From Occultella gossypii (GTDB lineage Bacteria > Actinomycetota > Actinomycetes > Actinomycetales > Beutenbergiaceae): a stretch of DNA of 64,000 nucleotides. Below are positions 21,015 through 40,171 of this stretch, piece after piece. Position 1 is the first letter of the stretch; each line of letters opens with the position of its first letter. Position numbers and translations under genes: made by a program. The notes below the pieces were generated by a model. It searched no databases. It was given only the letters and a program-made list of their open reading frames with translations, and was not told the origin of the DNA. The stretch is taken from NCBI RefSeq assembly GCF_019947135.1, contig NZ_JAGSHT010000010.1, forward strand, positions 62,001-126,000, given 5' to 3'.

Positions 21015-21054
21015 CCCGACCGCGACTACTTCGGCGGGGCGCAAGGGGTCGGAC

Positions 21055-24480: not shown

Positions 24481-24487
24481 GGCGTCT

Positions 24488-24493
24488 AACTTA
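24488..24493 (-). promoter_or_regulatory. Leaderless -10 box (TAAGTT) for sdhCAB
   Basis: TAAGTT lies 7 nt before the GTG at 24480. This supports the downstream start codon and predicts a leaderless sdhCAB transcript. Confidence 0.5.
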
Positions 24494-24553
24494 GCCCTTC
24501 CGAACGGTGCGCGTGACACGAGCCCGTCCGGAGGTGACGGTCTGTCGTGAATC

Positions 24554-25402
24554 TCACGTCAGCGTCGTCGACGGCGCGCCGGCGCCGACCGCGCCGTCGA
24601 TCACGCTGACGTGCCAGCGACCCAGGTTGCTCGAGAAGAGTCGCCTCCCTCGGAAGGCGAGGTTCGTGGGGTGGCACAGCAGGTGGGCGGTCGGGTCTGC
24701 CACGACGGTCGTCACGGTGCCGTCGGCCGGGTCCACCCGGAGCACCTGGGACGGTTCGTAGCACCCGACGTACAGGCCACCGTCGGGTCCCACCGTGACG
24801 CCGTCGGGCAGTGCGCCCGGCAGGTGCGCCAGGAGCTCGGGGCGCCCTGGGGCGCCGTCCGGCCCGATCGGGATCCGGGTGATCGCGGACGCGAACGTCT
24901 CCACTACGTACAGTTCCCGGCCCGACGGCGTCAGCGCGAGTCCGTTCGCGAAGTCCAGTTCGCCGTCGTACCACAGGCCTCCGGTGCCGTCCGGAGCGAA
25001 CCGGTACACGCCTGGGGCCGGCACCCCCTGCGCGCCGGAGTCCGAGACGTAGATGGTGCCGTCGGCGGCGACGGCGATCGCGTTCGGGGTCACGAACGGC
25101 CGGTCGCCGCCTCGGGAGAACACCTCGACGGTGCGGCTGGCCACGTCCAGGCGGTGCACGGCGCGCGCCTTCAGGTCGCACGCGTAGAGCGCGTCGCCGT
25201 CCGGGGTGAAGGTGACGCCGAGGATGAATCCGCCGGTGCTCGCGACCACCTCGAGCGCGTCGCCGTCCGGATCGATCCGGTACAGCTGGCCGGCCTCGCC
25301 ACCGCACCAGATGCTCCCGTCGGGATGCACCGCAATGCCCTCCGGGTGGTCCAGCTGCGGGTCCGTCACGGTTCCGTCATGGAACACACGCACCGTTGCC
25401 AT
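24554..25402 (-). CDS. SMP-30/gluconolactonase-like beta-propeller protein
   Basis: Encodes 282 residues of the SMP-30/gluconolactonase/LRE family: HPEGIAVHPDGSIWCGGEAG near the start (metal-binding Glu), VTPNAIAVAADGTIYVSDSG in the middle (metal-binding Asn) and LDFANGLALTPSGRELYVVET (Asn/Asp) later. Such enzymes hydrolyse sugar lactones to aldonic acids with a divalent metal. It is the last gene of the 35.7-24.5 kb sugar operon, 22 bp after the mutarotase-like gene, where a lactonase fits between the SDR (sugar to lactone) and the enolase-superfamily dehydratase (acid to 2-keto-3-deoxy acid). That pathway role is inferred. Confidence 0.85.
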   Translation of the reverse strand: MATVRVFHDGTVTDPQLDHPEGIAVHPDGSIWCGGEAGQLYRIDPDGDALEVVASTGGFILGVTFTPDGDALYACDLKARAVHRLDVASRTVEVFSRGGDRPFVTPNAIAVAADGTIYVSDSGAQGVPAPGVYRFAPDGTGGLWYDGELDFANGLALTPSGRELYVVETFASAITRIPIGPDGAPGRPELLAHLPGALPDGVTVGPDGGLYVGCYEPSQVLRVDPADGTVTTVVADPTAHLLCHPTNLAFRGRRLFSSNLGRWHVSVIDGAVGAGAPSTTLT

Positions 25403-25424
25403 GGCCTCCTACCTCCTCATCGCC

Positions 25425-26447
25425 TCACTGTTGCGGTCGGCTGGGATCGAACAGACTCGCCTCGATCGTCGCGGTCCGGCTCTCGCCACCGGCCAGGTGC
25501 AGCAGGTCCTCCTCGCGCGCCCCGGCGACGCCGTGCCCCGGGATGGTGCTGGCCGGCTCGATGGCGCACACGTACGCCTCGCGCCACCACGGGTGCCCGG
25601 GGCTCCCGTGCAGCTCCTGCCAGAACCACGCGTGCGGCCAGAGCGTCGCGTCCCAGGACAGCCGCACGCCCAGACCCAGGCCGACGTTCGTGATCTCGGC
25701 CCAGGCGCCGTCGGTTCCGAGGTCGGTCAGGTACCCGAAGGTGGCGACCCGCTCGTGGCGCCCGGGCACGACGGACAGGTCCCGCAGCGACCCGTCGGCC
25801 GCGACGGCCAGCGGCCACGCACCCCGCTCCCCCGCCGCCAGGTGGGTGCCCGGGGACGTCCCGTCGGCGAGGAACGTCCGAGCGCCCGTGGTGATCCGTG
25901 CCCCGGCGTCGAGCAGGGGCGCCCCGAACGCCGGATGGTGCGACCACATCACCCCGATCGGGTCCGGCCCGGTGTTCTCGCAGGTCTCCGTGATCGAGAC
26001 GCCTGCGCCGGCGAGCCGGATGGTCCGCCGCAGCCGCAGCGGAGCCGCGGTGAGCCGGGTCTGCGCCGTCAGCCATGCGGCCCCGCCGTCGGTCCCGGAG
26101 CCGGTCACCCGCCATGGGATCCGGGAGGCCTCCCCGTGGAACCCCCAGGTGCCGCCGCCCGGCGCGGGCGACGCGGCGCCACCGTTCGGGCACAGCACCT
26201 GCCACCCGCCGGGGTAGCGCTCGAGCCACTGTGGTTCGTCGACGGCGTTCCACGCCCCGGTCGCCCGCGGCGGGATGCCCCACGGCGCCCGGAACAGCAC
26301 GTCCACCTCGGTTCGCCGGTCCACGAGCGAGACGAGGTCGCACCCCTTCTCCGGCAGCACGGTCAGGCTCGCCTCGTGGCTGTGCAGCTCCAGCGCCGGC
26401 CACCCGCCGTTGAGGGTGGTCGTCGCGACCCCGGGCGCCGCCGTCAT
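25425..26447 (-). CDS. Aldose 1-epimerase (mutarotase)-like protein
   Basis: Encodes 340 residues in a beta-sandwich pattern of the galactose mutarotase superfamily. Recognisable parts are LTVLPEKGCDLVSLVDRRT near residue 28, the WSHHPAFGAPLL segment holding a candidate catalytic His near residue 180, and VCAIEPAS close to the C-terminus with a candidate catalytic Glu. It would interconvert alpha and beta anomers of the sugar released in this operon. The frame continues to 27323 but ATG at 26447 lies 5 bp after the preceding stop and fits family length. Substrate is unknown. Confidence 0.78.
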   Translation of the reverse strand: MTAAPGVATTTLNGGWPALELHSHEASLTVLPEKGCDLVSLVDRRTEVDVLFRAPWGIPPRATGAWNAVDEPQWLERYPGGWQVLCPNGGAASPAPGGGTWGFHGEASRIPWRVTGSGTDGGAAWLTAQTRLTAAPLRLRRTIRLAGAGVSITETCENTGPDPIGVMWSHHPAFGAPLLDAGARITTGARTFLADGTSPGTHLAAGERGAWPLAVAADGSLRDLSVVPGRHERVATFGYLTDLGTDGAWAEITNVGLGLGVRLSWDATLWPHAWFWQELHGSPGHPWWREAYVCAIEPASTIPGHGVAGAREEDLLHLAGGESRTATIEASLFDPSRPQQ

Positions 26448-26452
26448 CGCCG

Positions 26453-28531
26453 TCAGCTCCTGCGCACCTGGCCGTCGACCACGTCGTAACTGACGCCGCC
26501 GACGCGCAGCCCCCGCAGCGCCGCACCGGGGTCGAGCCCGTCCACGCAGCCGTTCGCCGTCACCGTGCCGTCCCAGTCCACGTGGACGCCGAAGATCCCG
26601 GAGATCACCAGTTCGACCCAGGACCCGGCCGAGGAGCAGGACCAGTCGATCAGGTACGGGAACTGGGGCGGGGTCTTGCGCGCTCCCCCGTTGACCGGTT
26701 CGGCCGCCTCCTCGACGAAGTGCGCCTGCCCGGGCGGACCCTGGTTCGCCGACCGGGCCAGGCCGGGCAGCCACTCCAGCACCACCTCGGGGTGGCCGAG
26801 GGCGATCGCGGACCGCGCGGCGTCCGGCGGCCAGGCCGGGTAGGCACCGTTCCACTGATGGTCGGCGCGCAGGGAGTAGCCGGCGTCGGCGTCGTACGGC
26901 GAGAGCGCCCGCATCCAGGACGGCGTCCGCAACTCCTCCGTGAAGAACCGGACCATCTCGTTCCGCGTCCGGGCCGGCAGGTCCGCCGCGATGGTGGTGC
27001 CCACGGTCGCGAAGTCGTAGCAGTGCCGGGTCGGGACCAGCGACCCGTCGGGCTGGCGGGCGTGGAAGAACCCGGCGCCGGGGATGTACAGGTCCTTGAC
27101 CAGGGCGACGAGGTCGTCGGCCTCGGTCCGCAGCGTCGCCGCCTCGCCCGGGTCGCCCTCGAGTTCGGCGAGACCGGCCGCGGTGCGCAGGCACCACACG
27201 TTCGCGGCGTTCAGGCTGGCGACCTCGTGGACGTAGGAACTCACGCACTCGAGCAGGTTGTCGATCTCGCCGTAGTCGGCCAGGCCACTGGCCGAGCGGA
27301 TCCGGTGCCAGGCCCGCGACCACGCCCGGACGTCGTCGGCGAGACGCTGCGTGACGCCGTCGGCCGTGGTCAGCGACTCATCGAGGAAGGCACGGTCCCC
27401 GGTGAACGCGACGTAGTCGCGCACGAGCCGGGTCATCGCGTAATGGTTGACGGAGTACCAGTAGCCGACCGGCCCGCCGGTGAGCCACTCGGTGCCGAAG
27501 TGCTTGTCGATGTCCAGTCCGACCCAGTGCGCGATCTGGCGGCGCATCACCCCCGGGTCGAGCAGGGCGTGCACCTGGGAGGACAGCGAGTAGTCCCAGA
27601 TGAACGTCGTGGTCTGCCAGTACCGGGGCATGAGCGTGTCATAGGTCCGGCCGAGCACGGACGCCGGGTTGTCCCGTTTGAACCACAACACCCCGACGGC
27701 GCCCCACCAGTACAGCCGTCGCAGCGCCTCGTCGTCGGTCTCCAGCACCGGCAAGCAGCCGCTGAACTCGTCGTCGTCGGGGTCGAACATGGCGGCGATC
27801 TGCCGGTCCCACTCGGTCTCACTCGCTTGCGCCGCATCCGGCAGGCCCGCCACGAGACGGCCCGCGACCTGCGCCGCCTGCGCCGGCTCCGCGGCGACGG
27901 CGTGCACGTAGCCGAAGGCGACGGTGGCGCCCGCGGGCACCTCGAGCACCGCCTCGACGACGTGCGCCGGCCCGTCCAGCAGGCGTGCGCCGTCGGGCCG
28001 GACGAACTCCTGGACCGCGGTGGCGCTGCCGTCGGTGCCGACCACCCGGGCGCCGGTCCGGGTGAGGGTGTTCGTGGCCTGCGGCGGTTCGGCCGAGAGC
28101 CACGGCCCCGCCTGCTTCGTCACGGTCGAGGCCAGCCACAGGCCGAGCCGCAGGTCCCGGTCGGCGCCGGTGGTCTCCGTGACCTCGATCGTCACGGCCA
28201 CGCCGGGCTCACCGGGCGGGCACACCGTGATCGTGGTGATCTCCCAGCCGTCGATGGTGGTGCTGCGCTCGACCCGGTCCGGGCGCCAGCGCACGTTCAC
28301 GGGTCGGCCGAACGACCGGGCGAGGCGGCCGCCGAGGTAGAGTTGGCCGGAGATCGAGTCGCCCTGCGAGACCGGCGGGACGTTCAGGCTCCGGACCGCG
28401 ACGACGTCGTGGTCCACCTGGGCGACGGCCCAGTGGTTGGTCAGGCCGGGCGGGTTGACCATGTCGTCGAAGGCATCGACGACGACGTCACTGGCGAGGT
28501 CCGCGCAGGTCGGGACGAGGTGGTGGGTCAC
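26453..28531 (-). CDS. Six-hairpin (alpha/alpha)6 glycosidase-like protein, family not assigned
   Basis: Encodes 692 residues, no signal peptide. The N-terminal third is beta-rich (VRWRPDRVERSTTIDGWEI); the C-terminal part shows repeated helical hairpins with TTTFIWDYSLSSQVHALLDP, FGTEWLTGGPVGYWYSVNHY, ADYGEIDNLLECVSSYVHEVASLNAANVW-type segments and a late DHQWNGAYPAWPP, resembling GH37/GH63/GH65-like six-hairpin enzymes with acidic residues in WDY and YGEID positions. It probably hydrolyses a glycosidic bond of an imported oligosaccharide in the cytoplasm. GTG at 28531 overlaps the preceding stop and follows AAGGA; the longer frame to 28918 is not coding. I cannot place it in a named CAZy family by eye. 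Confidence 0.75.
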   Translation of the reverse strand: MTHHLVPTCADLASDVVVDAFDDMVNPPGLTNHWAVAQVDHDVVAVRSLNVPPVSQGDSISGQLYLGGRLARSFGRPVNVRWRPDRVERSTTIDGWEITTITVCPPGEPGVAVTIEVTETTGADRDLRLGLWLASTVTKQAGPWLSAEPPQATNTLTRTGARVVGTDGSATAVQEFVRPDGARLLDGPAHVVEAVLEVPAGATVAFGYVHAVAAEPAQAAQVAGRLVAGLPDAAQASETEWDRQIAAMFDPDDDEFSGCLPVLETDDEALRRLYWWGAVGVLWFKRDNPASVLGRTYDTLMPRYWQTTTFIWDYSLSSQVHALLDPGVMRRQIAHWVGLDIDKHFGTEWLTGGPVGYWYSVNHYAMTRLVRDYVAFTGDRAFLDESLTTADGVTQRLADDVRAWSRAWHRIRSASGLADYGEIDNLLECVSSYVHEVASLNAANVWCLRTAAGLAELEGDPGEAATLRTEADDLVALVKDLYIPGAGFFHARQPDGSLVPTRHCYDFATVGTTIAADLPARTRNEMVRFFTEELRTPSWMRALSPYDADAGYSLRADHQWNGAYPAWPPDAARSAIALGHPEVVLEWLPGLARSANQGPPGQAHFVEEAAEPVNGGARKTPPQFPYLIDWSCSSAGSWVELVISGIFGVHVDWDGTVTANGCVDGLDPGAALRGLRVGGVSYDVVDGQVRRS

Positions 28532-29595
28532 GGCTGTCCTTGGTTCGGGTGCTTGTCGGGTGGCAGGTGGTGGCCGGTGGTGGCCGGTCGAAGGTGTTCG
28601 GCGAGCCAGGCGGCCAGGTGCGCGTCGTCGTGCGCGCCGCCCGCCTCGTGGCCGCCGTAGGGCCAGGTGCGGACCTCGGGGGTGATCGCCTCGATGGCGT
28701 TGATCGCGCCGAAGATGCCCGACGGCGGACAGATCGGGTCCCCGAGCCCCACGGAGATCCAGGTGGGGCAGCGCAGCCGCGGGGTGAGGAAGGAGACGTC
28801 GACATGATCGAGCACCGCGAGGACGTCCTGCGCGCGGGTGCGGTGCACGGACAGGTAGCGGGCCAGGTCCCCGTAGGGCTCGGCGTCGGTGACGTCGAGG
28901 GCGCGGGCGATCCCGCACAGGAACGGCGCCCGGGCACCGACGGCGGCGACGGCGGGGTTCAGCGCCGCGGCGGCCAGCGCGAGCGCGCCGCCCTGGCTGT
29001 GCCCGACGGTGGCGATCCGGCCCGGGTCCGCGCCCGGCAGGTGGGCGACGGCGTCGACGGCGAGCACGGCGTCGGTGAGCAGGCGGCGGTAGTAGAGGTG
29101 GTCGGGATGGTCGACGCCCTTGGTGAGCATGCCGACGGATCCCGCGGCGGAGCCGTGCGGGTCCGGGGTGTCGCCGGTGTTCCAGATGCTGCCCTGGCCG
29201 CGGCTGTCCACGACGAGCTGGGCGAACCCGTGGCCGGCCCAGATCAGGCGCTCGTGGGGCAGGCCCCGACCGCCGCCGTACCCGAGGAACTCGACGACGA
29301 CCGGAAGGGTGCGGCCGGTACCGACGGGACCGTTCGTGCTCGCGTCAGCGACGCCGTCGGGCAGTACCGGTACCAGCCACCAGGCCCGGACGTCCTCGCC
29401 GGCGAAGCCGGGGAAACTCACGTCGTAGCAGGTGACCGTCCTCAGGCCGACGTCGACCCGGTCGTAGCGGACCGGCCCAGCCGCCGCGCGGGACTGTGCC
29501 AGGGTCCGGTCCCAGTACTCGGCCAGCCCGGACGGCGCCGGCCGGGGCTGGCGGTAGGTCCGCAACTGCTCCAGCGGCAGGTCGATCTGCACCAT
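28528..29595 (-). CDS. Acetylxylan esterase/cephalosporin-C deacetylase family (AXE1) protein
   Basis: Encodes 355 residues of the alpha/beta hydrolase AXE1 family. The nucleophile elbow is GHSQGGALAL near residue 190, the catalytic Asp is in VGLGDPICPP, and the catalytic His is in YGGHEAGGAH. SRGQGSIWNTGDTPDPHG is a characteristic loop. It removes acetyl groups from imported acetylated oligosaccharides in the cytoplasm. ATG at 29595 follows GGGAGG; the frame open to 29796 is not needed. The stop overlaps the GTG of the glycosidase-like gene (GTGA), so deacetylation and hydrolysis are translationally coupled. Confidence 0.9.
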   Translation of the reverse strand: MVQIDLPLEQLRTYRQPRPAPSGLAEYWDRTLAQSRAAAGPVRYDRVDVGLRTVTCYDVSFPGFAGEDVRAWWLVPVLPDGVADASTNGPVGTGRTLPVVVEFLGYGGGRGLPHERLIWAGHGFAQLVVDSRGQGSIWNTGDTPDPHGSAAGSVGMLTKGVDHPDHLYYRRLLTDAVLAVDAVAHLPGADPGRIATVGHSQGGALALAAAALNPAVAAVGARAPFLCGIARALDVTDAEPYGDLARYLSVHRTRAQDVLAVLDHVDVSFLTPRLRCPTWISVGLGDPICPPSGIFGAINAIEAITPEVRTWPYGGHEAGGAHDDAHLAAWLAEHLRPATTGHHLPPDKHPNQGQP

Positions 29596-29693
29596 CAGAA
29601 CATCCTCCCGCCGCCGAACGCGAGGTTGTTGGCCCCGGACGCGCCCCAGGAGCCAACGATGTCGCGTTCGGCGACGACGATCAGGAGGGCCAT
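29595..29693 (-). CDS. Possible 32-residue ORF bridging two operon genes
   Basis: The frame encodes [14 protein letters not shown] then [18 protein letters not shown]. Its ATG lies inside the last codons of the dehydratase gene (13-bp overlap) and its TGA overlaps the esterase ATG as TGATG, so it fills the only sizeable gap of an otherwise tightly packed operon. That geometry suggests either a real small protein, a coupling leader, or a remnant of a lost gene. I recognise no family, and chance is a real possibility in G+C-rich DNA. Confidence 0.28.
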
Positions 29694-30955
29694 CGGGCGT
29701 ACTCCGCGGCGAGGGCGTCCGGGATGCCCTCGATGGTGTGGTCGGCGAAGGATGTGTTCGGCAGCAGCGGGTACCAGTCCGGGCGGCCCGGGTCACGGTC
29801 GTAGGGGTAGCCGCCGAGCTCGCGGTAGAGCTCGGCGTACTCGGCGACCTTGTCCCGGTCGAGGGTGACGCCGAGGCCGGGCGCCGTGGGCACCGCCATC
29901 TTGCCGTCTACGTAGGGGCGCAGACCGCCGGTGACGATGTCGTCGGTGAGGTGGTGGTAGTGCGCGTCCGCGGCGAACACCAGGTTCGGCACCACCGCGC
30001 CCAGGTGCAGCATGGTGGCGAGCTGGATGCCCAGTTCCCCGGAGGAGTGCACGGCCACGCCGAGGGAGAACGCCTCGCAGATCCCGGCGGCGCGGATGCA
30101 CGGCCGGATTCCGCCCCAGAACGTGGTGTCCAGGAGGATCACGTCCACGGCGGGGTTGAGGATGTTCGCCGCGAGCTGTTCGAAGTTCACGACCACCGTG
30201 TTCGTGGCGAGCGGCACGTGCGTGTTCTCCCGGACCCGGCGCATCCCGGTGAGTGAGTAGACCGGGTCCTCGAGGTAGTCGTTCGGCAGGTCCTCGATCG
30301 CCTTCGCGAACCGGATCGACTCCTCCACGCTGAGCGCGCCGTTCGGGTCGTACCGGAACCGGTCCGCCGGCAGCGCCTCGGCGAGCGCCCGGTAGCCGGC
30401 CAGTTCGAAGTCGGTGTCGAACACCCCGGCCTTGAGCTTGTGCACGCGGAACCCGTGCTTGGCCTTGAGGGCCTTCGCCTCGTCGACGAGCTGGTCGATG
30501 GTGCGGACCTCGCCGCTGCCGTCGCGCCCCGGGTACCGGTAGAACAGGTAGGACGCGAACTCGACCTCGTCGCGGACCTTCCCGCCGAGCAGGTCGTGCA
30601 CCGGCAGGCCGACGTGCTGGCCGAGGAGATCCAGGCATGCGAACTCGACGGCGGCCAGGAGCTGGGTGCGGTTGTTGTACAGGCTCGCGGTCGGGTTCGC
30701 GATCATGAACCGGAGCGCCTCGACGTTTGCCGGGTCGTGGCCGACCAGGTAGGGCTTCAGCGCGGCGATGGCGGCCTCCGAGCTCTGCCCGCCGCCGCCC
30801 ATCTCGCCCAGGCCGATCAGGCCGTTACTCGCCTCGATCTCCACGATCGTGCGCACGAACCGGCCCCAGTGGGCACCGTTCGAGTGTCGCAGCGGCGCCT
30901 CGAGCGGCACCGTCACGGTGGTCGCCCGGATGTCGACGATCCTCAGGTCACTCAC
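29681..30955 (-). CDS. Enolase-superfamily acid-sugar dehydratase, glucarate-dehydratase-like
   Basis: Encodes 424 residues. Catalytic pattern of the glucarate dehydratase/mandelate racemase group: K173-L-K175 in VHKLKAG, metal ligands D203 and E229 (RYDPNGA and YLEDP), N252 in LATNT, D276, and H303 in [12 protein letters not shown]. Such enzymes dehydrate aldonic or aldaric acids to 2-keto-3-deoxy acids. The N-terminal capping domain is present and length is normal. Within this operon it would act after the SDR and lactonase. Its start overlaps the SDR stop (ATGA). The actual acid substrate cannot be deduced. Confidence 0.87.
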
Positions 30956-31773
30956 TGGTCCTCCTCGGGCAGGGCGACGGCGTTGCCCGCGGTGAGGCCG
31001 CCGTCGACCTTGATATCGGCACCGGTCACGAACGATGACCGGTCACTGAGCAGGTAGGCCACCACGTCCGCGACCTCCCCGGCGCGGGCGACCCGGCCGA
31101 GGGGGTGCGATCGGCCCCACTCGGCGACGATCGCGTCCACCTGTTCCGGGCTGTCCGCGTGCAGACCAGCGGCCCAGCGCAGCATCGGGGTGTCCACCGA
31201 TCCGGGGCACACCGCGTTGACCCGGATGCCCTCGGGCGCGTGGTCGACGGCCATGGCCCGGGTCAGGGACAACAGCGCCCCCTTGGTGGCCGCGTAGGCC
31301 GCCACCCCGTGCTGGGCGACGTACGCCTGGACCGAGGAGATCAGCACGATGCCACCACCGCCGCCCGAGCGGATCTGCGGCACGGCGAGGTGCGCGGCGA
31401 GGAATGCGCCCCGGACGTTCACGGCCATCACCCGGTCGTAGGTCGCCATCGGGGTGGCGTCCACGGTGCCGTAGGTCTGGATGCCGGCGGCGCAGACGAG
31501 GCCGCCCAGGCCGCCGTCGGCCGCGATGGTCTCGAACGCGGTGGTCATCGCGGCCTCGTCGGTGACGTCCACCCGGATCCCGACGATCCTCCCCGGCCCG
31601 TGCGGCTGCTCCAGACGCGCCAGGGCATCGGCGTCGGTGTCGAGCGCGTACACCCGCGCGCCGTCACCGGCCAGGCGCGCCACGACGGCGCCCCCGATCC
31701 CCGCTGCTCCTCCGGTGACCGCGACCACGGTGGGTGACCCTCCGCCGTCGCCGGCCTCGAACGGTGTTGTCAT
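30952..31773 (-). CDS. Short-chain dehydrogenase/reductase (SDR)
   Basis: Encodes 273 residues of the classical SDR family. The cofactor motif is [16 protein letters not shown] near residue 19; Asp in ALDTDADAL suggests NAD preference; the catalytic Ser/Tyr/Lys are in [24 protein letters not shown]. It probably oxidises the free sugar to a lactone in the first catabolic step. It lies 18 bp after the permease gene and overlaps the dehydratase gene by four bases, so it belongs to the same operon. Substrate is inferred from neighbours only. Confidence 0.9.
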
Positions 31774-31791
31774 CTCAGGCTTCCGCCTTTC

Positions 31792-32601
31792 TCAGAACTG
31801 GCCGAGGGACAGGCCCCGGGTGAAGGCCCGCTGCGTGGCCAGGAACAGGATCACCGTGGGTAGGGAGACGAGCAGCCCGCCGGCCAGCACCGTGGACATC
31901 GCCGATCCCCCGTAGGTGCTCTGCAGTGCGGACAGTGCCGTGATCACCGGGCGGATCTCCGAGGACTGGGTCAGGGTCAGGCCCAGCAGCAGGTCGTTCC
32001 AGATGAACGTGGCCTGCAGGATGAAGATCGCGATCAGGGCGCTGGTGGACATCGGCAGGTAGATCCGCCAGAAGATCCGCCAGGTGGACGCGCCGTCCAT
32101 GACCGCGGCCTCGAACACCTGGTGCGCGATGCCGGTGAAGAAGTTGCGCATCACGAACGCGGAGAACGGGGTGGCGATCACGGTGTACACGAGGATCATG
32201 CCGACCCTGGTGTTGAACAGACCGGTCTGGGCGTACCCGACGAACAGCGGCATCAGGATCATCTGCAGCGGGAAGATCGTGCTGGCGAAGATGACCACGA
32301 ACCAGAAGAACCCGTTCCGCAACCGGAGGGCCACGATGGCGAACCCGGCGGCGGCCCCGATGATCACGGCGATGATCGGGGACACGATGGCGTAGACGGC
32401 CGTTGAGACGATGCCCTGGGACAGCCGGCCGCGGTCCCAGGCGTCGGCCATGTTCGTGAAGAGGGCGCCGAGGTTGCCGGGCTCCCACAGCCCGTACGTG
32501 CCGAACTCGGCAGGCAGTTTCGAGGCGTTCGCGAGGAGCAGGTACACCGGCACCAACCAGAGCAGGCCGAGGACTGCGAGGACGATCTTGCGTGCGAGCA
32601 T
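31792..32601 (-). CDS. Carbohydrate ABC transporter permease (MalG-type)
   Basis: Encodes 269 residues with six membrane helices beginning MLARKIVLAVLGLLWLVPVY and the EAA loop EAAVMDGASTWRIFWRIYLP. It pairs with the permease at 32612 to form the importer channel. The spacing of 10 bp to the upstream permease and 18 bp to the SDR supports one transcript. No ATPase gene is present in the operon. Confidence 0.9.
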   Translation of the reverse strand: MLARKIVLAVLGLLWLVPVYLLLANASKLPAEFGTYGLWEPGNLGALFTNMADAWDRGRLSQGIVSTAVYAIVSPIIAVIIGAAAGFAIVALRLRNGFFWFVVIFASTIFPLQMILMPLFVGYAQTGLFNTRVGMILVYTVIATPFSAFVMRNFFTGIAHQVFEAAVMDGASTWRIFWRIYLPMSTSALIAIFILQATFIWNDLLLGLTLTQSSEIRPVITALSALQSTYGGSAMSTVLAGGLLVSLPTVILFLATQRAFTRGLSLGQF

Positions 32602-32611
32602 GACGGCCTCC

Positions 32612-33529
32612 TCAGATCGACCTGGAGTCGGCGAGCTGCCGGCGCAGGTAGAGGATGGAGGCGAGCACCGTGACCACGGTCAGGAACAGCGCCACCGCCG
32701 CGCCCAGACCGTAGGCGTTGTTGATGAACGTCTCCTTGTACATGGTCAGGGCGAGCGTCTCCGAGACACGGCCCGGGCCGCCCTTGGTCATGCCCCAGAT
32801 GATGTCGAAGGTCTTCAGGCTGCCCACGATGGAGAGCCCGACCACCACGGTGGTGAGCGGGGCGAGCATCGGCCAGGTCATCGTGCGGAACAGCGTGAAG
32901 CCGCTGGCACCGTCGACCCTGGCCGCCTCGAGCGGCTCCTTCGGGATGGACTGCAGGCCGATGCCGAACAGCAGCGCGTTCACGCCGGCGCCCTGCCAGG
33001 TGGAGGCGCCGATCATGACGAAGGTGTTCAGCGGTGCGTCGAGCAGCCAGCGCAGTTCCGAGCCGGGCAGGTGCAGGAACACCAGGGCCTGGCTGAGCGC
33101 ACCGTTGGTCTGCAGCACGAAGGACCAGATCACGCCGACGGCGACCCCGGAGAGGGCGTACGGGATCAGGAACGGCAGCCGGAACAGCGTGGCGTTCGGC
33201 AGCCCGTGGCTGAGCACGGCGATCAGCAGTCCGAGTCCGACCGGCAGCGCGATCGTGCCGATCACCCAGTAGAGGGTGTTGAGGACGGAGTTGAGGAACG
33301 CCGGGTCGGCGAACATGTCCCGGAAGTTCTCGATGCCGATGAACTCCGGGTCTCCGAGGCCGTTGTACTCGGTGAAACTGATGTACGTGGTCCACAGGAA
33401 CGGCAGGTAGAGCACGACGGCGACGAGCAGCACGCCGGGTGCCACGAAGCCGATGCTGGAGAGCCAGAACTGGTTCTTGGGTTTGCGCTGTGGGACGAGT
33501 TCCGCTTGCCTCGCGGCGGGCAGCGACAT
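32612..33529 (-). CDS. Sugar ABC transporter permease (MalF-type)
   Basis: Encodes 305 residues with about six helices; early FVAPGVLLVAVVLYLPFLWTTYISFTEY-type segment and EAA loop EAARVDGASGFTLFRTMTWP. A longer frame to 33676 exists, but ATG at 33529 follows GAAGGAGG and gives a normal N-terminus (MSLPAARQAEL). It is separated from the binding-protein gene by a perfect 15-bp hairpin. Confidence 0.9.
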   Translation of the reverse strand: MSLPAARQAELVPQRKPKNQFWLSSIGFVAPGVLLVAVVLYLPFLWTTYISFTEYNGLGDPEFIGIENFRDMFADPAFLNSVLNTLYWVIGTIALPVGLGLLIAVLSHGLPNATLFRLPFLIPYALSGVAVGVIWSFVLQTNGALSQALVFLHLPGSELRWLLDAPLNTFVMIGASTWQGAGVNALLFGIGLQSIPKEPLEAARVDGASGFTLFRTMTWPMLAPLTTVVVGLSIVGSLKTFDIIWGMTKGGPGRVSETLALTMYKETFINNAYGLGAAVALFLTVVTVLASILYLRRQLADSRSI

Positions 33530-33563
33530 GCGTACGCACCTCCTTCTTCGGGCGGGCCGGATC

Positions 33564-33608
33564 GTCGGTGGGGTCCGCGGCCGGGCTGGGGCGGCGGACC
33601 CCACCGAC
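33564..33608 (-). terminator. Perfect 15-bp hairpin between binding-protein and permease genes
   Basis: GTCGGTGGGGTCCGC (33564-33578) and its exact complement (33594-33608) flank a 15-nt loop. It lies 3 nt past the binding-protein stop and about 35 bp before the permease start. Without a T-run it probably acts as a partial terminator or mRNA 3'-end protector, leaving binding protein in excess. Confidence 0.7.
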
Positions 33609-33611
33609 AGG

Positions 33612-34892
33612 TCAGTTGTCGGCCCAGTACGCGTCCGCCTCGGCCTGGATCGCCTCCAGGACCGCCATCGGGTCACCGTTGTTCGTCACGAACGCCCCGA
33701 ACTGCTCGGAGGCCACGGTGTAGATCGGGGTCGGGGTCGCCTCCAGGTAGCGGCGCAGCTGGAGGAAGCCGTCGCCGTTGACCTCCTCGGTGATCGCCGC
33801 CAGGGCAGCGTCGGTCACCGTGGCGCCGGGGTTGAAGGAGACGTCACCGCGGGACTCGCTCCATGCGGACTGGGCGTCGACGCCCATCCACCAGGCGCTG
33901 TAGTCGAGGGCGGCCGCCTCGTTGGCGCTGCCGGCACCCACGCAGAGCGGGCCGGTCTCGACGACCACGGAGGTGTCGCCCAGGTCGGCGCTGACGTTCG
34001 GCAGGGTGAAGATCCCGTAGTCGGTGTCGGAGACCATGCCGAGATCGGTGAGCTGGCCGGTGAAGAACGTCCCGAAGTACGCCATCGCGACCTCACCGGT
34101 CTGGAGCAGCGTCTGCGGGTCCGTGGTCACGCCCGGGTCGATGAAGAAGCCGTCGGTCTGCATGTCGTGCCAGATGTTCATGGCCTCCACCACCACCGGG
34201 TCGGTGTAGCTGACGCTGCCGTCGGAGAGGCCGTTGTACGCGTCGGGGTCGAGGCCCGCGAGGATCGCCTGGAACCAGACGAACTCGAAGATGATGTTCA
34301 TCTGGTGCAGTGGCACCACGCCGTTGTCCACGAGGGTCTGCCCGACGTCCATGAACTCGTCCCAGGTGGTCGGGACCTCGACGCCGTTCTCCTCGAATAC
34401 GGCCTTGTTGTAGTACATGACCCAGTAGACGACGTTCAGCGGAACGCAGTACTGCTCGCCGTCGTAGGTGTAGTTCTCCGCGAGTTCCTCGGTGACGTCA
34501 CCGTTCGCGATCGCGGCGTCCCAGATCTCGGTGGTCGGCGCGATCAGGCCCTCGTCGACGAGCTGGGCGAGCGAGTCGCCGGTGTGCCAGGTGAACAGGT
34601 CCGGCTTGTCGTCGGTCCGGAACGACTGCTTGATGAACGCGTCGTAGGCCGTGGGGTCGGAGTACCCGGTGAACTCGAGTGTGGCCGTGGTGCCCTCGGA
34701 GGCGGCGTTCATGTCGTCGAAGGACGGCTCCCACGCGGCTTTGTCGGTGTAGAAGCTCAGGACGGCTTCGGTGGGATCGCCACCGTCACCGCCATCGCCG
34801 CCGTCTCCGCCGTCGCCGCCTCCGGAACACGCGGCCAGGGTCAGCGCGGCCGCGGTGAGCACGGCGGCCGCCAGGGTCGTCTTCTTCCTCAT
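33612..34892 (-). CDS. Sugar ABC transporter substrate-binding lipoprotein
   Basis: Encodes 426 residues. A signal peptide ends in LTLAAC with C22 as lipid attachment, followed by an unusual spacer of four GGD repeats (encoded by GGCGGAGAC-like units). The rest matches SBP_bac_1 binding proteins: VLSFYTDKAAWEPSF, KPDLFTWHTGDSLAQLVDEG and YCVPLNVVYWVMYYNK. AAAGAGGTG lies before the ATG. It delivers an oligosaccharide, probably acetylated given the esterase downstream, to the permeases. It lies 87 bp downstream of the GntR gene. Confidence 0.9.
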   Translation of the reverse strand: MRKKTTLAAAVLTAAALTLAACSGGGDGGDGGDGGDGGDPTEAVLSFYTDKAAWEPSFDDMNAASEGTTATLEFTGYSDPTAYDAFIKQSFRTDDKPDLFTWHTGDSLAQLVDEGLIAPTTEIWDAAIANGDVTEELAENYTYDGEQYCVPLNVVYWVMYYNKAVFEENGVEVPTTWDEFMDVGQTLVDNGVVPLHQMNIIFEFVWFQAILAGLDPDAYNGLSDGSVSYTDPVVVEAMNIWHDMQTDGFFIDPGVTTDPQTLLQTGEVAMAYFGTFFTGQLTDLGMVSDTDYGIFTLPNVSADLGDTSVVVETGPLCVGAGSANEAAALDYSAWWMGVDAQSAWSESRGDVSFNPGATVTDAALAAITEEVNGDGFLQLRRYLEATPTPIYTVASEQFGAFVTNNGDPMAVLEAIQAEADAYWADN

Positions 34893-34979
34893 GGATACAC
34901 CTCTTTGTGGGGTTGGGGTGCTGCTGTCGGTGCTGCTGGGTACTTCGGCTGGGTCCGTGTGGGACCTTCGCAGCCCGGA

Positions 34980-35681
34980 TCAGCCGATCCGGGCCCGGAT
35001 CACCTCGACGACGTGGTCGAGGTGGGTGTAGGCGGCATCGCGAGCGAGTTCGGGATCACCGTCGCGGACGGCGGCACCGATCCGGGCGTGCTCGGCGTAG
35101 TCATCGACTGCGTCGCCATGCAGTCGCAGGATCTCCTTCTGTTCCTCGCCGTGGACGAGCACGATCGAGTCGAGGACCTCGGCGAGCACGCCGTTGCCCC
35201 CGGCCGCGGCGACCGCTCGGTGGAAGTCGAGGTTCGAGAGCCAGAGCGCCTCGTCCCGTTCGGCGACGAGTCGGCGCGACCGCTCGAGCGCCTCCTCCAT
35301 CCAGGTCATGGCGACCGGCTCGCGCACCTGGGCGGCCAGCATCGCCAGCTGCGGTTCGATCTGCCGGCGGGCCTCGAGGAGCTCCACGAGCTGGTCGGAG
35401 TCCGGCCGGGGCGAGAGCGGGTTCGCGAGCACCCGCCGGCCCGAGTTCGCGCCGACGTAGACGCCGGAGCCGTGCCGGAACTCCAGGACGCCGAGCCCTT
35501 CGAGCCGCCGCATGGCCTCCCGCATGGTGGGCACGGCGACCTCGAAGCGGGCCGCGAGCACCTTCATGGAGTCCAGCGGGTCACCGGGCTGGAGCCCGCG
35601 GTCGTTCACCAGCCGCACGATGGCACGCGCCAGATCACTGGAGAGGTTCGCCCTCTTCGCGACGTCCGGCTGCTGTGTCAT
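34980..35681 (-). CDS. GntR-family transcriptional regulator (FCD subgroup)
   Basis: Encodes 233 residues from ATG 35681. The N-terminal winged helix includes LAARFEVAVPTMREAMRRLEGLGVLEFRHGSGVYVG; the C-terminal FCD ligand domain includes LLEARRQIEPQLAMLAAQ, DFHRAVAAAGGN and EHARIGAAVRDGD, with the metal-binding Asp/His positions typical of FCD. Such proteins usually repress sugar-acid operons and are released by a pathway intermediate. It heads the operon and has a palindrome over its own upstream start codon (35690), which argues for the 35681 start and for autoregulation. Confidence 0.9.
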   Translation of the reverse strand: MTQQPDVAKRANLSSDLARAIVRLVNDRGLQPGDPLDSMKVLAARFEVAVPTMREAMRRLEGLGVLEFRHGSGVYVGANSGRRVLANPLSPRPDSDQLVELLEARRQIEPQLAMLAAQVREPVAMTWMEEALERSRRLVAERDEALWLSNLDFHRAVAAAGGNGVLAEVLDSIVLVHGEEQKEILRLHGDAVDDYAEHARIGAAVRDGDPELARDAAYTHLDHVVEVIRARIG

Positions 35682-35685
35682 GCAA

Positions 35686-35706
35686 GTCATCTAATCACTA
35701 GACGAC
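35686..35706. promoter_or_regulatory. Candidate operator of the GntR regulator
   Basis: GTCATCTA (35686-35693) and TAGACGAC (35699-35706) pair at 7 of 8 positions around a 5-bp AT-rich centre, ATCAC. This lies immediately upstream of the regulator start, in one of the few AT-rich spots of the window, and fits the 15-21-bp operators bound by FCD-GntR dimers. Confidence 0.45.
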
Positions 35707-35801
35707 GACGCGGGACCAGCACATCGTCCGCACCGATATGAATCTGTGACCTGTCGGTCGCGGCGGCAGTCGGACCCGCAGCGGCGCTCGGTGGCGCCGG
35801 G

Positions 35802-37028
35802 TCAGCCGCAGCGCCCGAGTTCCCGCCCGCAGTCCGGGTGCAGCCCCAAGTCGATTTCGACGAACCGCGGCCGGTAGATCGTGACGTCCTCGTACAGGTC
35901 GCCGGAGTCGAAGCTGTTCACGTTGTACGTGACGAGGATCCGGTCCCCCCGGGTGCGCAGCTCCGGGTGCTCATGGGCGTTGTAGGCGAAGATGTTCGGG
36001 TTGCCGTAGGAGCCTGCGGCGCCCACCTCGGGCATCTCGTAGACGGTGCCCAGCGGCAGGAACGGGCCGGTCGGCGAGCAGGAGACGTACGCCTCGATGT
36101 TCCGGCTGAAGATCTCATGCGTGTCCTGGGTGATCAGCAGGTATCCGTCCCGCAGCGGGGTGACGCTGTATTCGTTGGCGACGCCGTCCATGACGCGAAC
36201 CGTGTCCGTCTCCTCGGCTGACCACCCGGCCCCGTCCCAGTACTCCCACGGCGCGCCGTCGAGGTCGCGGCCGGCCACCCGGGCGACGTGCATGTACTTG
36301 GACGCACCCAGGTCCTCCACGCCGTAGATGTAGGTGTAGCGCCCGTCCCGCTGGAGCCAGCTCGCCCACTGCACCCCGGCCGCCGAGGGCAGGTCGACGA
36401 AGTCGAGCCGCTCGAACGTGTCGGAGTCGAACGTGGCCAGGTGGTTGGACTCCCAACCGAAGTCGAAGGCGCCACCGCCGCCGTACCAGAACTTGAGGGC
36501 GACCAGCTGCAGGTTGCCGTCGCTGTCGGTGGCGCCGTCGCCGACCCAGTACCAACCGCCACCCTCCTCGGGCGGCGGGATCAGCGACTCCGGCGCCTCG
36601 GCGGTGCCACCGGTCGCCGTGCTCAGACTCCCGCGCTCATCGATCACGAAGGAGTTGTTCAGGAACGGCGTGGTCTCGGGGCGGGACCCGTCCGGGTTCA
36701 CCGGACCGAGGAACGTGTCCGAGAAGATCCAGGCGGTCCGCCCGCCGTCCAGCGGCACCGAGTAGGTGGAGTCACCACCGGTCCACCCCTCACCAGAGTC
36801 GCCGTAACCGGTGAAGGCCTCCGTCAGAGGGGCGTGCACCTGAGCGGACGGATCGATCGCCACCCGGTCCAGCGAGCAGGAGCCTTCGCCGGATCCGCCT
36901 GGCCCGCCGGCCTGAGCCGGCAGCGCGCCCAGCAGCAGGGCACCGATCCCGAGCCCGACGGCGGTGGCGGCAGCGAGGCCACGGCGACGCGGCCTCTCGT
37001 TCATCTGGGCCGTGGTGGAGGGACGCAT
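35802..37028 (-). CDS. Secreted DUF4185-domain protein
   Basis: Encodes 408 residues. The N-terminus NERPRRRGLAAATAV then a hydrophobic stretch ending ALPAQAGG is a signal peptide, possibly Tat-type because of the Arg cluster. The mature part is a beta-propeller-like DUF4185 domain with TEAFTGYGDSGEGWTGGDS, WIFSDTFLGPVNPDG and FGWESNHLATF. Some DUF4185 proteins have been shown to be endo-D-arabinanases (family GH183) acting on actinobacterial arabinan, so a glycosidase acting on cell-wall or environmental polysaccharide is plausible. ATG at 37028 follows AAAGGAG; the earlier frame start at 37073 lacks a ribosome site. Confidence 0.8.
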   Translation of the reverse strand: MRPSTTAQMNERPRRRGLAAATAVGLGIGALLLGALPAQAGGPGGSGEGSCSLDRVAIDPSAQVHAPLTEAFTGYGDSGEGWTGGDSTYSVPLDGGRTAWIFSDTFLGPVNPDGSRPETTPFLNNSFVIDERGSLSTATGGTAEAPESLIPPPEEGGGWYWVGDGATDSDGNLQLVALKFWYGGGGAFDFGWESNHLATFDSDTFERLDFVDLPSAAGVQWASWLQRDGRYTYIYGVEDLGASKYMHVARVAGRDLDGAPWEYWDGAGWSAEETDTVRVMDGVANEYSVTPLRDGYLLITQDTHEIFSRNIEAYVSCSPTGPFLPLGTVYEMPEVGAAGSYGNPNIFAYNAHEHPELRTRGDRILVTYNVNSFDSGDLYEDVTIYRPRFVEIDLGLHPDCGRELGRCG

Positions 37029-37085
37029 GATCGTGGCTCCTTTGCCTGGACCGGACCAGTCGGCGTTCCGCATAGGTGAACGCTG

Positions 37086-37095
37086 GTTCCGGAAC
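37086..37095. promoter_or_regulatory. Candidate IclR-type operator upstream of the DUF4185 gene
   Basis: The perfect palindrome GTTCCGGAAC lies 58 bp upstream of the DUF4185 start and 46 bp downstream of the IclR-family gene; a further GTTCC half-site lies near 37065. IclR-family proteins commonly bind such TTCCGGAA-like palindromes. Confidence 0.4.
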
Positions 37096-37140
37096 TGATG
37101 CGAAGAGCATTCCAGTGCCGCCGGGCACCGGTCAAGGCTT

Positions 37141-37902
37141 CTACAGCGTCGGCGGCAGCGTGAGCGAGCCGGGCAGCTCGGCCTCGACGACCCGGCGGAG
37201 CCGACGGCCGAGTTCGGGGATCTGGTGCTCGAGCCGGTCGAGCGGCATCGTCACGCTCACCGCGGCCACCGGTCGGCGGGCCCGCAGGATCGCCACCGCC
37301 ACGCACCCGATGCCGGGCTCGGACTCGCCGCGCTCCACCGCGTAGCCGTCGAGTCGGGCGTTCACCACCGCCTCCCAGGACCGTTGCACCTCCTCCGGTG
37401 TGAACCGGGCCGGCGGCGCGAGCCGCCCGAGCACACGACGGTCCACCTCGCCCGCGGCGAGCAGGGCACGGCCCAGAGCGGTGGTCAGTGCCGCGATCCG
37501 GCGTCCGACGGCACTCCACACCCGGATCGCGTGCGCCGGCTCCGCCTTGTCCACGTACACGACGTCGGGCCCGTCGAGCACCCCGAGCTGGCACAGTTCG
37601 TCGAAGGAGTCGCGGATGCTCTCGAGCATCGGGTGCAGCAGCGCCGGCAGGTTGTCGCCCTCGATGAACGTGGCGCCGAGGTCGATCGCTGCGGCCCCGA
37701 GGCGGTACCACCCGGTCACGGGGTCCTGCGCCACGAAGTGCCGGAACCGGAGCGCCGCGAGGGTGCGGTGCAGGGTGGACTTCGATACCGACACTGCCTC
37801 GGCCAGGTCGGCGAGGCTGCGCCCGCGCGGACCTGCGGCGGAGAGATCGGTAAGGACCAGCAGCGCCTTGTCGACGCTGCCCATCGGGGACTGCTCCGTC
37901 AT
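37141..37902 (-). CDS. IclR-family transcriptional regulator
   Basis: Encodes 253 residues. The winged helix is in LADLAEAVSVSKSTLHRTLAALRFRHFV (residues 30-57) and the C-terminal ligand-binding GAF-like domain includes VYVDKAEPAHAIRVWSAVGRR and GYAVERGESEPGIGCVAVAIL. IclR proteins sense small metabolites, often sugars or aromatics. It lies upstream of the DUF4185 gene on the same strand with a candidate operator between them, so the DUF4185 gene is the likely target. It is only 16 bp downstream of the emfourin-like gene and may share its transcript. Confidence 0.9.
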   Translation of the reverse strand: MTEQSPMGSVDKALLVLTDLSAAGPRGRSLADLAEAVSVSKSTLHRTLAALRFRHFVAQDPVTGWYRLGAAAIDLGATFIEGDNLPALLHPMLESIRDSFDELCQLGVLDGPDVVYVDKAEPAHAIRVWSAVGRRIAALTTALGRALLAAGEVDRRVLGRLAPPARFTPEEVQRSWEAVVNARLDGYAVERGESEPGIGCVAVAILRARRPVAAVSVTMPLDRLEHQIPELGRRLRRVVEAELPGSLTLPPTL

Positions 37903-37918
37903 CGTTCGTCCGGCTGCG

Positions 37919-38308
37919 TCACTGTGTGGACGCGCCGCCGTCTTCCGTGCCGTCGGGGCCGCCGATCAGGTGGTCGGCCAGGTCGCGGACCGTGCGCTCG
38001 AACTCCTCGAAGCCGGGAATGCTCGCCGCGTCCTGTGACCACACCCTGACCTCCCGGGAGTCCACGGTCACGACGATCGGAACCTCGTCGTCCCCGATCG
38101 TGCGGCTTGAGCCCGTGAGGTCGCGCAACCCGGCCGCCTCGGCCACGTCATGCAGGCGCTCGCGCTGGGCGTCCGTGAGCATCCCTGAGCCGGTGCGCCG
38201 ATTGAGATCCCCTCGGCCAGAGGACGACGCCTGCGCCGATCCGTCCTCCTCGACGGTCAGGGTCAGGTAGCCCGACATCTCGTGCCCGCGCTGGTAGTGC
38301 ATCGTCAT
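37919..38308 (-). CDS. Small emfourin-like protein (possible protease inhibitor)
   Basis: Encodes 129 residues without a signal peptide. The pattern YQRGHEMSGYLTLTVEEDG, then a helix LTDAQRERLHDVAEAAGLRDL, then beta strands PIVVTVDSREVRVW and a C-terminal helix FEEFERTVRDLADHL resembles emfourin, the inhibitor encoded beside protealysin-type proteases. It lies 16 bp downstream of a zinc-protease-like gene on the same strand with GGGGAGAG before its ATG, the arrangement expected for protease and inhibitor. The similarity is judged by eye and is modest; it might instead be an unrelated small alpha/beta protein. Confidence 0.5.
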   Translation of the reverse strand: MTMHYQRGHEMSGYLTLTVEEDGSAQASSSGRGDLNRRTGSGMLTDAQRERLHDVAEAAGLRDLTGSSRTIGDDEVPIVVTVDSREVRVWSQDAASIPGFEEFERTVRDLADHLIGGPDGTEDGGASTQ

Positions 38309-38324
38309 CTCGGCTCTCCCCTCA

Positions 38325-39188
38325 TCACATCGATCTCAGCGAACATGTATACCCCGCGAACGCCTTCGCCACCTCCGTCACGATGTGCTGGAAGTGTCGG
38401 GCCTTGAACTGCGCCTGCGGGATCCCCTGGGAATAGTAGTTCGCCATGATGCTGTGGTCGTTCGTGAGGACCCTGTTCGGCATCGCCGGGTTGACGTACT
38501 CATCGCTGGCGCCGAGCGCGGCATGGCCGAACTCGTGGGCGTAGGTGATGTCGACCTCGGGCGTGCCGTCGCCCAGGAACTCGTAGATCGTGCCGCCGGT
38601 GGTGGCCATGGCACTGCCGCCGCCGGGGGTCCCACCGTGCACATCGATCGCGTACCCGCTCGGGTCGTCGTAGAGGATGAACGTGATCGGCAGGTTGACC
38701 GGAGCAGGGCCGGCCGCGGGCGAGTCGGGCGTGCAGACGACCTTGAACTTGTTGTCGAGATAGCTGTAGGCCGCGGTCTTGACCCGCCTGATGAACGCCG
38801 CGTACGCGGCGTCGGATGCCCAGGTGCCCTTCCGGACCCAGTTGATGCCGAGGCTGATCTCCACCGTGTTGTGGGTCCGGTCGAGGAGGAGGTCCTGTGT
38901 GTAGGTGTTCCCCGTATCGGTGGTCTCACTGATCGCGGTGCGAGTCGTCTCCCGGCTCACCACGGGACCCGGCACGGCGGCCCGCGCGCCCGCGAGCGCA
39001 CGCTGTACCGCGCGGTTGCCGGCCGCTCGCTGCAGGAACTCGAGCGTTTCCGGAGCGGTCGCGGCGCCTGGTGGGCGGATCAGGTCCGGCTCGCGCACGG
39101 GTGACCCGGTCAGGTGCTCCGGGGCTTGTGCGGACCCTCGGACGACCTGGCTCTCGGGCGATCTTCCCCACGTCCGCGGACGGTCCAC
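38325..39188 (-). CDS. Metzincin-like zinc protease with AGNRAVQRAL N-terminal motif
   Basis: About 287 residues from GTG 39188 (start uncertain; the frame runs to 39329 and another GTG is at 39098). Residues 52-65 read LQRAAGNRAVQRAL, the AGNxAVxRL-type motif common near the N-terminus of actinobacterial DUF4157-type proteins, several linked to extracellular contractile injection systems. The zinc site is HEFGHAALGASDEY (H218, E219, H222, D229), one residue longer than the metzincin HExxHxxGxxD spacing, followed by HSIMANYY, which resembles a Met-turn. No signal peptide is seen. Probably a protease, possibly exported by a non-Sec route; the adjacent emfourin-like gene could restrain it. Confidence 0.7.
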   Translation of the reverse strand: MDRPRTWGRSPESQVVRGSAQAPEHLTGSPVREPDLIRPPGAATAPETLEFLQRAAGNRAVQRALAGARAAVPGPVVSRETTRTAISETTDTGNTYTQDLLLDRTHNTVEISLGINWVRKGTWASDAAYAAFIRRVKTAAYSYLDNKFKVVCTPDSPAAGPAPVNLPITFILYDDPSGYAIDVHGGTPGGGSAMATTGGTIYEFLGDGTPEVDITYAHEFGHAALGASDEYVNPAMPNRVLTNDHSIMANYYSQGIPQAQFKARHFQHIVTEVAKAFAGYTCSLRSM

Positions 39189-39314
39189 ACGATCATGATC
39201 GCGCCGCCCGCGCCGGTGGTGTGGTCCGATCGGGCATCCGGTCGGGCAGTCCTGCGATGGCCGATCACCCGACCGGGACCGGGGCGCCTGCCCGGACCGT
39301 CGTCCGCCAACCGA

Positions 39315-39320
39315 TAGGTT
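39315..39320 (+). promoter_or_regulatory. Leaderless -10 box (TAGGTT) for hisN
   Basis: TAGGTT lies 7 nt before the ATG at 39328 with no ribosome site between. It supports ATG 39328 over the TTG at 39319. Confidence 0.5.
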
Positions 39321-39327
39321 GCCTGAC

Positions 39328-40146
39328 ATGAGCAGCGATAGTGCAGCCCAGGCCCCTCGACGGCCTCGCTACGACGACGACCTCCGCCTCGCACACGTGA
39401 TCGCGGACCAGGTCGACGCGCAGACGACGGCCCGGTTCAAGGCGCAGGACCTGCACGTGGAGTCGAAGCCGGACACCACGCCGGTCACCGACGCGGACCG
39501 CACCGCCGAGGAGATCGTCCGGGCCCAGCTGTCCCGGACCCGCCCCCGCGACTCGGTGCTCGGCGAGGAGTTCGGGGTGACCGGCCATGGCGCCCGCCAG
39601 TGGGTGATCGACCCGATCGACGGCACCAAGAACTTCGTCCGTGGTGTGCCGGTCTGGGCCACCCTCATCGCGCTGGTGGACGAGGGCCAGCCGGTGCTCG
39701 GCGTGGTCAGCGCACCGGCGCTGAACCGGCGCTGGTGGGCGGCCAACGGATCCGGGGCGTGGACCGGCCGGTCGCTTTCCGCGGCCACGCGGATCTCGGT
39801 GTCCTCGGTGACCCGCCTCGAGGACGCATCGATGTCCTACTCGAGCCTGGCGGGCTGGGAGGAGGCCGACCTGCTGGACGAGTTCCTGTCCCTGGAGGCC
39901 AGCCTCTGGCGCAGCCGTGCCTACGGCGACTTCTGGTCCTACATGCTGGTGGCCGAGGGCGCGGTGGACATCGCGTGCGAGCCGGACCTTGAGATCTACG
40001 ACATGGCGGCGCTGGTCCCGATCGTGACCGAGGCCGGCGGCCGGTTCACGTCGCTCGAGGGAGTGGACGGCCCGTTCGGAGGCAACGCCGTCGCCACCAA
40101 CGGGCACCTCCACGACGGCGTGCTGGCGGGCCTGCGGCGTCACTGA
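39328..40146 (+). CDS. hisN: Inositol-monophosphatase-family histidinol-phosphatase
   Basis: Encodes 272 residues. The metal-binding motifs are VLGEEFGV (Glu), the signature [19 protein letters not shown] (Asp/Asp), and [18 protein letters not shown] (Asp) near the C-terminus. Actinobacterial HisN proteins of this family remove phosphate from histidinol phosphate; the related inositol phosphatases cannot be wholly excluded. In other actinobacteria hisN commonly lies next to rsgA, but here it is 22 kb away. The start is supported by a leaderless promoter. Confidence 0.85.
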
Positions 40147-40171
40147 CCCGCACCTGCAGGGCGGTAGACCG

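Follow-up and report, generated by a model that had tools for sequence, protein, structure and literature searches.

A metzincin-like protease and its small partner in Occultella gossypii: a candidate toxin–immunity pair of a contractile injection system

A locus in Occultella gossypii encodes a metzincin-like zinc protease with an injection-system-type motif near its N terminus and, immediately downstream, a small protein, which raises the question of what the two do together. They lie in the window analyzed here, a stretch of 64,000 nucleotides from contig NZ_JAGSHT010000010.1 (assembly GCF_019947135.1, positions 62,001 to 126,000 of the forward strand). A preliminary description of this sequence had read them as a protease and an inhibitor that protects its producer. 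The answer that we favor, with confidence somewhat above even, is that the pair consists of a protease toxin delivered by an extracellular contractile injection system (eCIS) and its immunity protein. The effector–immunity idea is itself not new, pairs of this kind having been reported for an actinobacterial contractile system (PMC13277306) and beside eCIS (PMC8213781). We found no report of the present pair in the literature searched, with most subscription journals outside its coverage; searches on the motif letters and on contractile injection with metzincins returned no paper, and one on eCIS protease toxins with immunity lipoproteins returned none that contained three of its five terms.

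The protease, its partner and their cassette

The features of the locus are the following.

37916..39278, no strand: cassette holding both genes, from blastn of the window against congener G001
38325..39188, minus: metzincin-like zinc protease, 287 residues, start GTG at 39188
38994..39035, minus: LQRAAGNRAVQRAL motif, protease residues 52-65, proposed eCIS loading or docking tag
38325..38933, minus: protease domain, residues 86-287, from a nine-locus alignment in which 15 columns, the zinc site among them, are invariant
38496..38537, minus: zinc site HEFGHAALGASDEY, protease residues 218-231, with H, E, G, H, L, G, D, E and Y invariant in 9/9
38445..38453, minus: SIM, putative Met-turn, protease residues 246-248, the S and M of this S-x-M after the zinc motif being invariant in 9/9 aligned loci
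38316..38323, minus: Shine-Dalgarno-like GAGGGGAG between the protease and small genes
37919..38308, minus: small protein, 129 residues, proposed inhibitor or immunity protein
37141..37902: IclR regulator, flanking the pair
39319..40146, plus: histidinol-phosphatase gene, on the other flank

The three elements that the preliminary description had placed in one protein (LQRAAGNRAVQRAL, HEFGHAALGASDEY and SIM) are all present in the translation of 38325-39188, and the small open reading frame (ORF) does begin 16 nt after the protease stop on the same strand, its ATG lying 7 nt after GAGGGGAG. A signal peptide, said to be lacking in the protease, is indeed not visible there by eye, and none was seen in the small protein. 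Both ORFs are kept in a second Occultella genome, at 75% amino-acid identity for the protease and 64% for the small protein and with a ratio of nonsynonymous to synonymous substitution (dN/dS) of ~0.30 each, and we therefore regard both as real genes. In this two-species comparison, the protease core (84% identity) and the IclR regulator (93%) change more slowly than the N terminus of the protease (53%) or the small protein (64%).

The pair is present or absent as one unit. In congener G001, 27 bp replace the 1,363 bp of 37916-39278 between the same flanks, which are collinear and ~94% identical beside the cassette: in a blastn comparison with G001:C1:4002001-4060000, window positions 21045-37915 and 39279-40158 correspond to 11364-28203 and 28231-29110 at 94%. 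Occultella glacieicola carries the cassette at the same place as the window genome. An alternative protease start within the cassette is the GTG at 39098, and the cassette boundary favors a start at either this codon or 39188 over a longer frame.

Pfam gives no match for either protein at an E value of 10, and for the protease this includes Peptidase M64. The protease gives a weak M6 signal in NCBIfam (E = 6e-4; 19.8 bits vs a cut-off of 110.8) and, in a sequence search of the PDB, a weak match to IgA protease (PDB 9ekk; E = 0.02), an enzyme to which we take the label M64 to apply. In the close clade the zinc motif reads HEFGHxxLGxxDEY, one residue longer than the metzincin motif HExxHxxGxxH/D, whereas five distant relatives have HExxHxLGxxDEY with the usual spacing. 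The extra residue, held to make the protease unusual, is real in the close clade and not unique to it, being shared with IgA protease structures of equal spacing on a match of E = 0.02.

The protease was found in 2 of the 59 genomes searched, namely the window genome and congener G003, and the small gene adjoins it in both. A scan of genome contigs added three loci, in O. glacieicola (L012, the same sequence as G003), Agromyces humi (L013) and a Myxococcales metagenome-assembled genome (MAG; L014). At 4/4 close loci (two Occultella, Agromyces and the MAG), the small gene lies directly downstream of the protease. The Agromyces contig is only 5.5 kb long, so that assembly contamination is possible, and the protease N terminus is missing at its end.

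More distant relatives came from broader profiles. A four-row profile matched proteases in 7 of 329 Myxococcota genomes, one being the MAG, and at 5/6 of the further matches the distant protease has next to it a small gene whose product bears a lipoprotein-like leader; this gene overlaps the protease stop in L066, L067 and L071. The miss in that count is G552/L064, a match of 43 columns at the zinc motif only in a protein that looks secreted, with neither a small-family neighbor nor a sheath match. Among 396 Actinomycetota genomes, a two-row profile found only the window gene and was superseded by a nine-row profile, which matched 16. We examined 11 of the 20 non-window actinobacterial places, six genomes with wider DNA. 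A clear small-family neighbor occurs at 1/11 of these distant loci (L081/L098, E = 4e-7), where the order is the motif, two peptidoglycan-binding-like repeats read by eye, the metzincin and then a lipoprotein of the family overlapping its stop. The repeat-plus-metzincin protein of L076/L099 (4152-6179) has a C terminus that weakly matches the small family (E = 0.004), a possible protease–inhibitor fusion, and L077/L100 has a marginal neighbor (E = 0.02).

Distant copies of the protease domain also stand in enormous open frames of 19,630 codons (L092/L095, G299:C17) and 6,338 codons (L080/L091/L094, G183:C1), with two and three matches per frame, respectively; these might be giant polymorphic toxins. 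No relative was found in the viral contigs and phages searched. A plasmid search returned one Halalkalicoccus record at E = 5 and one weak Streptomyces match across the zinc region, in a 1,871-residue protein (L011:69-5684, NZ_CP109476.1) whose C-terminal distant zinc domain, HEFGHQFQAKDEH, resembles the window protease family.

Ties to contractile injection systems

The preliminary description had linked the AGN motif of the protease to contractile injection systems. The motif does occur in eCIS proteins, and the window genome contains an eCIS cluster, in which Pfam identifies sheath and eCIS_core genes ~1 kb apart and an AAA ATPase, and in which tube, LysM, gp25 and baseplate-like genes can be read by eye. 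A sheath gene is present in 5/5 genomes queried (G003, Agromyces, the MAG and two congeners that lack the protease), and eCIS-like genes, again read by eye, lie beside it in O. glacieicola (G003), Agromyces and the MAG. For background, 37 of 296 Actinomycetota genomes have eCIS_core. The sheath is found in 153 of 329 Myxococcota genomes and in 6/6 protease carriers, G552 being left out (hypergeometric P = 0.0096, with genomes treated as independent). A further tie is that relatives of the protease are fused behind eCIS_core itself, in the MAG (L014, E = 2.4e-12) and in G535 (L067, E = 2.4e-36).

The motif points the same way. Of 18 readable actinobacterial proteins with eCIS_core, 9 have LQxxxGN upstream of that domain, among them the window genome's own (LQRAIGN). 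A stricter pattern, which the window motif itself fails, occurs in 6/18 against 0 expected from shuffles; the shuffles were run for this pattern only, and both patterns were drawn up after the window motif had been seen. The count used 25 of 30 loci, the five weakest being left out, and 7/25 gave no eCIS_core signature by an expression of our own. In the eCIS cluster of G321, from the same order, a distant metzincin with LQRTAGNRAVSAL (L084/L096:9780-12086; E = 2.5e-7 across 63 columns) is encoded between eCIS_core and sheath. In G003 the protease is on contig C17 and the eCIS cluster on C11, with the sheath deep inside a long contig; the short contigs of the MAG (C25, C94) do not allow this distance to be judged. 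Taken together, the window protease looks like eCIS cargo encoded away from the cluster.

Three further observations concern the window genome. A second match to the AGN motif (C35:269417) falls in a frame that looks like noise by eye, and we do not count it as another cargo protein. Several QREAEEEELQGAFV repeats, nearly identical to one another, close the eCIS_core protein of this genome (L008:2115-3002). A zinc-ribbon protein encoded close to the end of the eCIS cluster (L008:14932-16638) carries a NADase_transloc domain (Pfam, E = 1e-8) and is perhaps cargo or a part of the translocation apparatus.

The family of the small protein

A profile hidden Markov model (HMM) of five Myxococcota lipoproteins ranked the four close-clade small proteins as the top 4 of 460 ORFs (E = 4e-7 for the window protein). 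In the reverse direction, an HMM of those four put 4/5 of the adjacent lipoproteins in the first four places among 236 ORFs, the last of them at only E = 0.09, and hhalign of the two families gave a Prob of 97 and a score of 72 vs a maximum of 19 in 100 shuffles. By these profile comparisons, the Myxococcota lipoprotein-like proteins are homologous to the small protein of the window. Matches of single members to DUF7407 (PF24156), Acylphosphatase and DUF6438 fall below cut-offs, and no convincing hit came from PDB sequence searches that used the small protein or profiles built from it.

Where the small protein acts may vary across its family. Judged by an expression of our own, a lipobox-like cysteine leader is present in 6/6 Myxococcota partners, one of them (PSAC) not canonical, and in 0/3 close actinobacterial partners, which suggests that the place of protection differs between lineages. 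This distribution bears on two other roles for the small protein. It could be a loading chaperone or adaptor of the protease, since small genes that stay paired with a neighbor may encode adaptors, and the close coupling of the two genes would fit this; a lipoprotein leader would, however, take the partner out of the cytoplasm, where loading happens, and we hold such a role to be very improbable. Alternatively, the protease could be eCIS cargo for eukaryotes such as amoebae, fungi or nematodes, with the small protein serving only to silence the enzyme in the producer until loading. For four eCIS a role in interactions with invertebrate hosts has been demonstrated (PMC8213781), and a cytoplasmic small protein in Occultella is what silencing before loading would look like. 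The lipoprotein-like partners at 6/6 Myxococcota loci and at L098 would instead protect the envelope, pointing to attack by kin or to bacterial targets, and a eukaryotic target appears to us distinctly unlikely.

The likeness to emfourin stood in part. A weak profile similarity is present and depends on the alignment used (hhalign Prob 78, 4.9, 12.9 and 78): nine emfourins gave scores of 34.6 to 35.9, above all 100 shuffles, and seven (alignment A5, the nine minus L026 and L029) gave scores of 21 to 24 with a Prob of 5 to 13, overlapping the top shuffle at 21.1. The emfourin family PF20242 has no match in the window genome at E = 0.001, and the small protein, lacking any Pfam match, has none to it; the best of the four close small proteins reaches 14.1 bits vs a cut-off of 27. 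The structure of emfourin (PDB 6zyg, 'Protealysin-associated protein') is not among the 50 structural matches listed for the small-protein model, and the partner in the window carries a metzincin-like motif and has no Pfam match, M4 (thermolysin-type) proteases included. We regard the small protein as possibly related to emfourin, a kinship that is suggestive, and not as an emfourin.

A pair of the protealysin/emfourin kind would be endogenous, acting on the cell's own proteins or released on lysis, and would need no particle. Protealysin and emfourin do form an operon of this sort (PMC9505478), and both the weak emfourin-like signal and the separation of the window genes from the eCIS cluster would suit it. 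The fusion of protease relatives to eCIS_core and the occurrence of the motif in eCIS_core proteins speak for a particle, and an internal regulator would not need the lipoprotein-like partners seen elsewhere. On balance, we consider an endogenous pair unlikely.

Structure prediction gave a usable model for the small protein, which is predicted to have a Mago-nashi-like fold. The AlphaFold2 model from four sequences has a mean predicted local distance difference test (pLDDT) score of 83.7 and a predicted template-modeling (pTM) score of 0.77. Among solved structures, eight Mago entries match it with Z of 10.5-11.2 over 104-121 residues at an rmsd of ~3, followed by a trypanosomatid protein at Z 7.8 and then by values of ≤4.2; Foldseek places the model with Mago at E = 7e-4 and a probability of 1.00. 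Sequence likeness to human MAGOH depends on the profile: with four members it is at chance level (14.8, within the shuffles, maximum 17.3 of 150), and with nine it is slightly higher (17.8 vs a maximum of 16.5 in 100); both alignments begin at the N termini, like the structural match. No Mago family is among the Pfam matches of the small proteins. More broadly, they may represent a Mago-fold bacterial immunity family without a Pfam match, distantly related to emfourin, which would neutralize metzincin toxins fired by contractile injection systems, shift compartment with the target between cytoplasm and envelope, and maybe be the prokaryotic source of Mago. We put this forward as a speculative proposal that, in its entirety, is unlikely to hold.

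Proposed mechanism and comparison with known systems

As we infer it for the toxin–immunity pair, the protease would be loaded through its N-terminal LQ-x3-GN motif into a particle made from the eCIS cluster elsewhere in the genome. The particle would be fired into neighboring bacterial cells, where the metzincin-like domain would act as a toxin by cleaving proteins. The small protein would bind the protease, probably by covering the zinc cleft, and so protect the producer and its kin, in the cytoplasm in Occultella and as an envelope lipoprotein in Myxococcota and one other actinobacterium. What stands of the earlier protease/inhibitor proposal is the pairing of the two genes, their conserved linkage in one cassette and the contractile systems of the carrier genomes; that the small protein inhibits is the part we would add conditionally.

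Several observations weigh against this reading. The window protease lacks the eCIS_core (DUF4157) domain and lies on contig C32, with the sheath >110 kb inside C34 and hence far from it, at odds with the 88% of known eCIS toxins in PMC11297309 that fall within ten genes of the cluster. Two congeners have a sheath gene and no protease, and the in-cluster metzincin of G321 has no detected small-family neighbor. A convincing neighbor was not seen at 8/11 distant actinobacterial loci, several of them cut short (at one, L079, a 66-residue frame rich in arginine, matched at E = 0.0065, was judged noise). The small gene precedes the protease in L068 and L069, and the L067 lipoprotein scores no better than background with the four-member HMM. 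The protease model, finally, is poor and unusable (pLDDT 51.9), and its best PDB match (Z 4.1) was given no weight.

If the favored reading holds, the pair would speak to a gap that PMC8213781 calls 'an intriguing mystery', the lack of a recognizable immunity gene for most of its antibacterial eCIS toxins. It offers a defined, testable immunity candidate. A motif led to it, together with a cassette remote from the eCIS cluster, where surveys that weight distance to the cluster would probably miss it. The LQ-x3-GN motif would be a simple handle for other orphan cargo. Should the predicted fold prove true, the small protein would also give a bacterial starting point for tracing where Mago nashi arose.

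The known systems closest to the pair each share a part of it. Mago nashi of the exon junction complex (PDB 1hl6, 2hyi, 3ex7) has the fold predicted for the small protein but is a eukaryotic RNA-processing protein. Protealysin and emfourin (M4in) of Serratia proteamaculans (PMC9505478) are, like the window pair, a zinc protease and a small partner encoded together; the window protease has no M4 match, and its partner is longer (129 residues vs 91 profile positions), scores below the Pfam cut-off and is lipoprotein-like in other lineages. With the eCIS-associated toxins that carry eCIS_core/DUF4157 (PMC8213781; PMC11297309), the window case has in common an eCIS in the genome, fused relatives and an N-terminal motif. 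It differs from them in that its gene is on another contig and encodes a protease domain without a Pfam match. Toxin–immunity pairs beside eCIS have been demonstrated for some of these toxins; the window pair has a conserved partner gene, whereas PMC8213781 reports that none could be found next to most of its verified toxins. RS14790/RS14785 (PMC13277306) likewise combines an effector with a downstream gene that relieves growth inhibition and is tied to an actinobacterial contractile system, the effector being of the tape-measure-related Sle1 type and not a zinc-site protease. The VgrG2b–PA0261 and Tpe1–Tpi1 pairs of type VI secretion systems (T6SS; PMC6899460) use a thermolysin-like DUF4157-type domain with T6SS parts, in contrast to the separate metzincin-like domain and eCIS of the window. 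In them a zinc metallopeptidase is delivered by a contractile machine and countered by a small envelope immunity protein, in some cases a predicted lipoprotein, an arrangement that the window pair would parallel, with injection in its case proposed from the genes.
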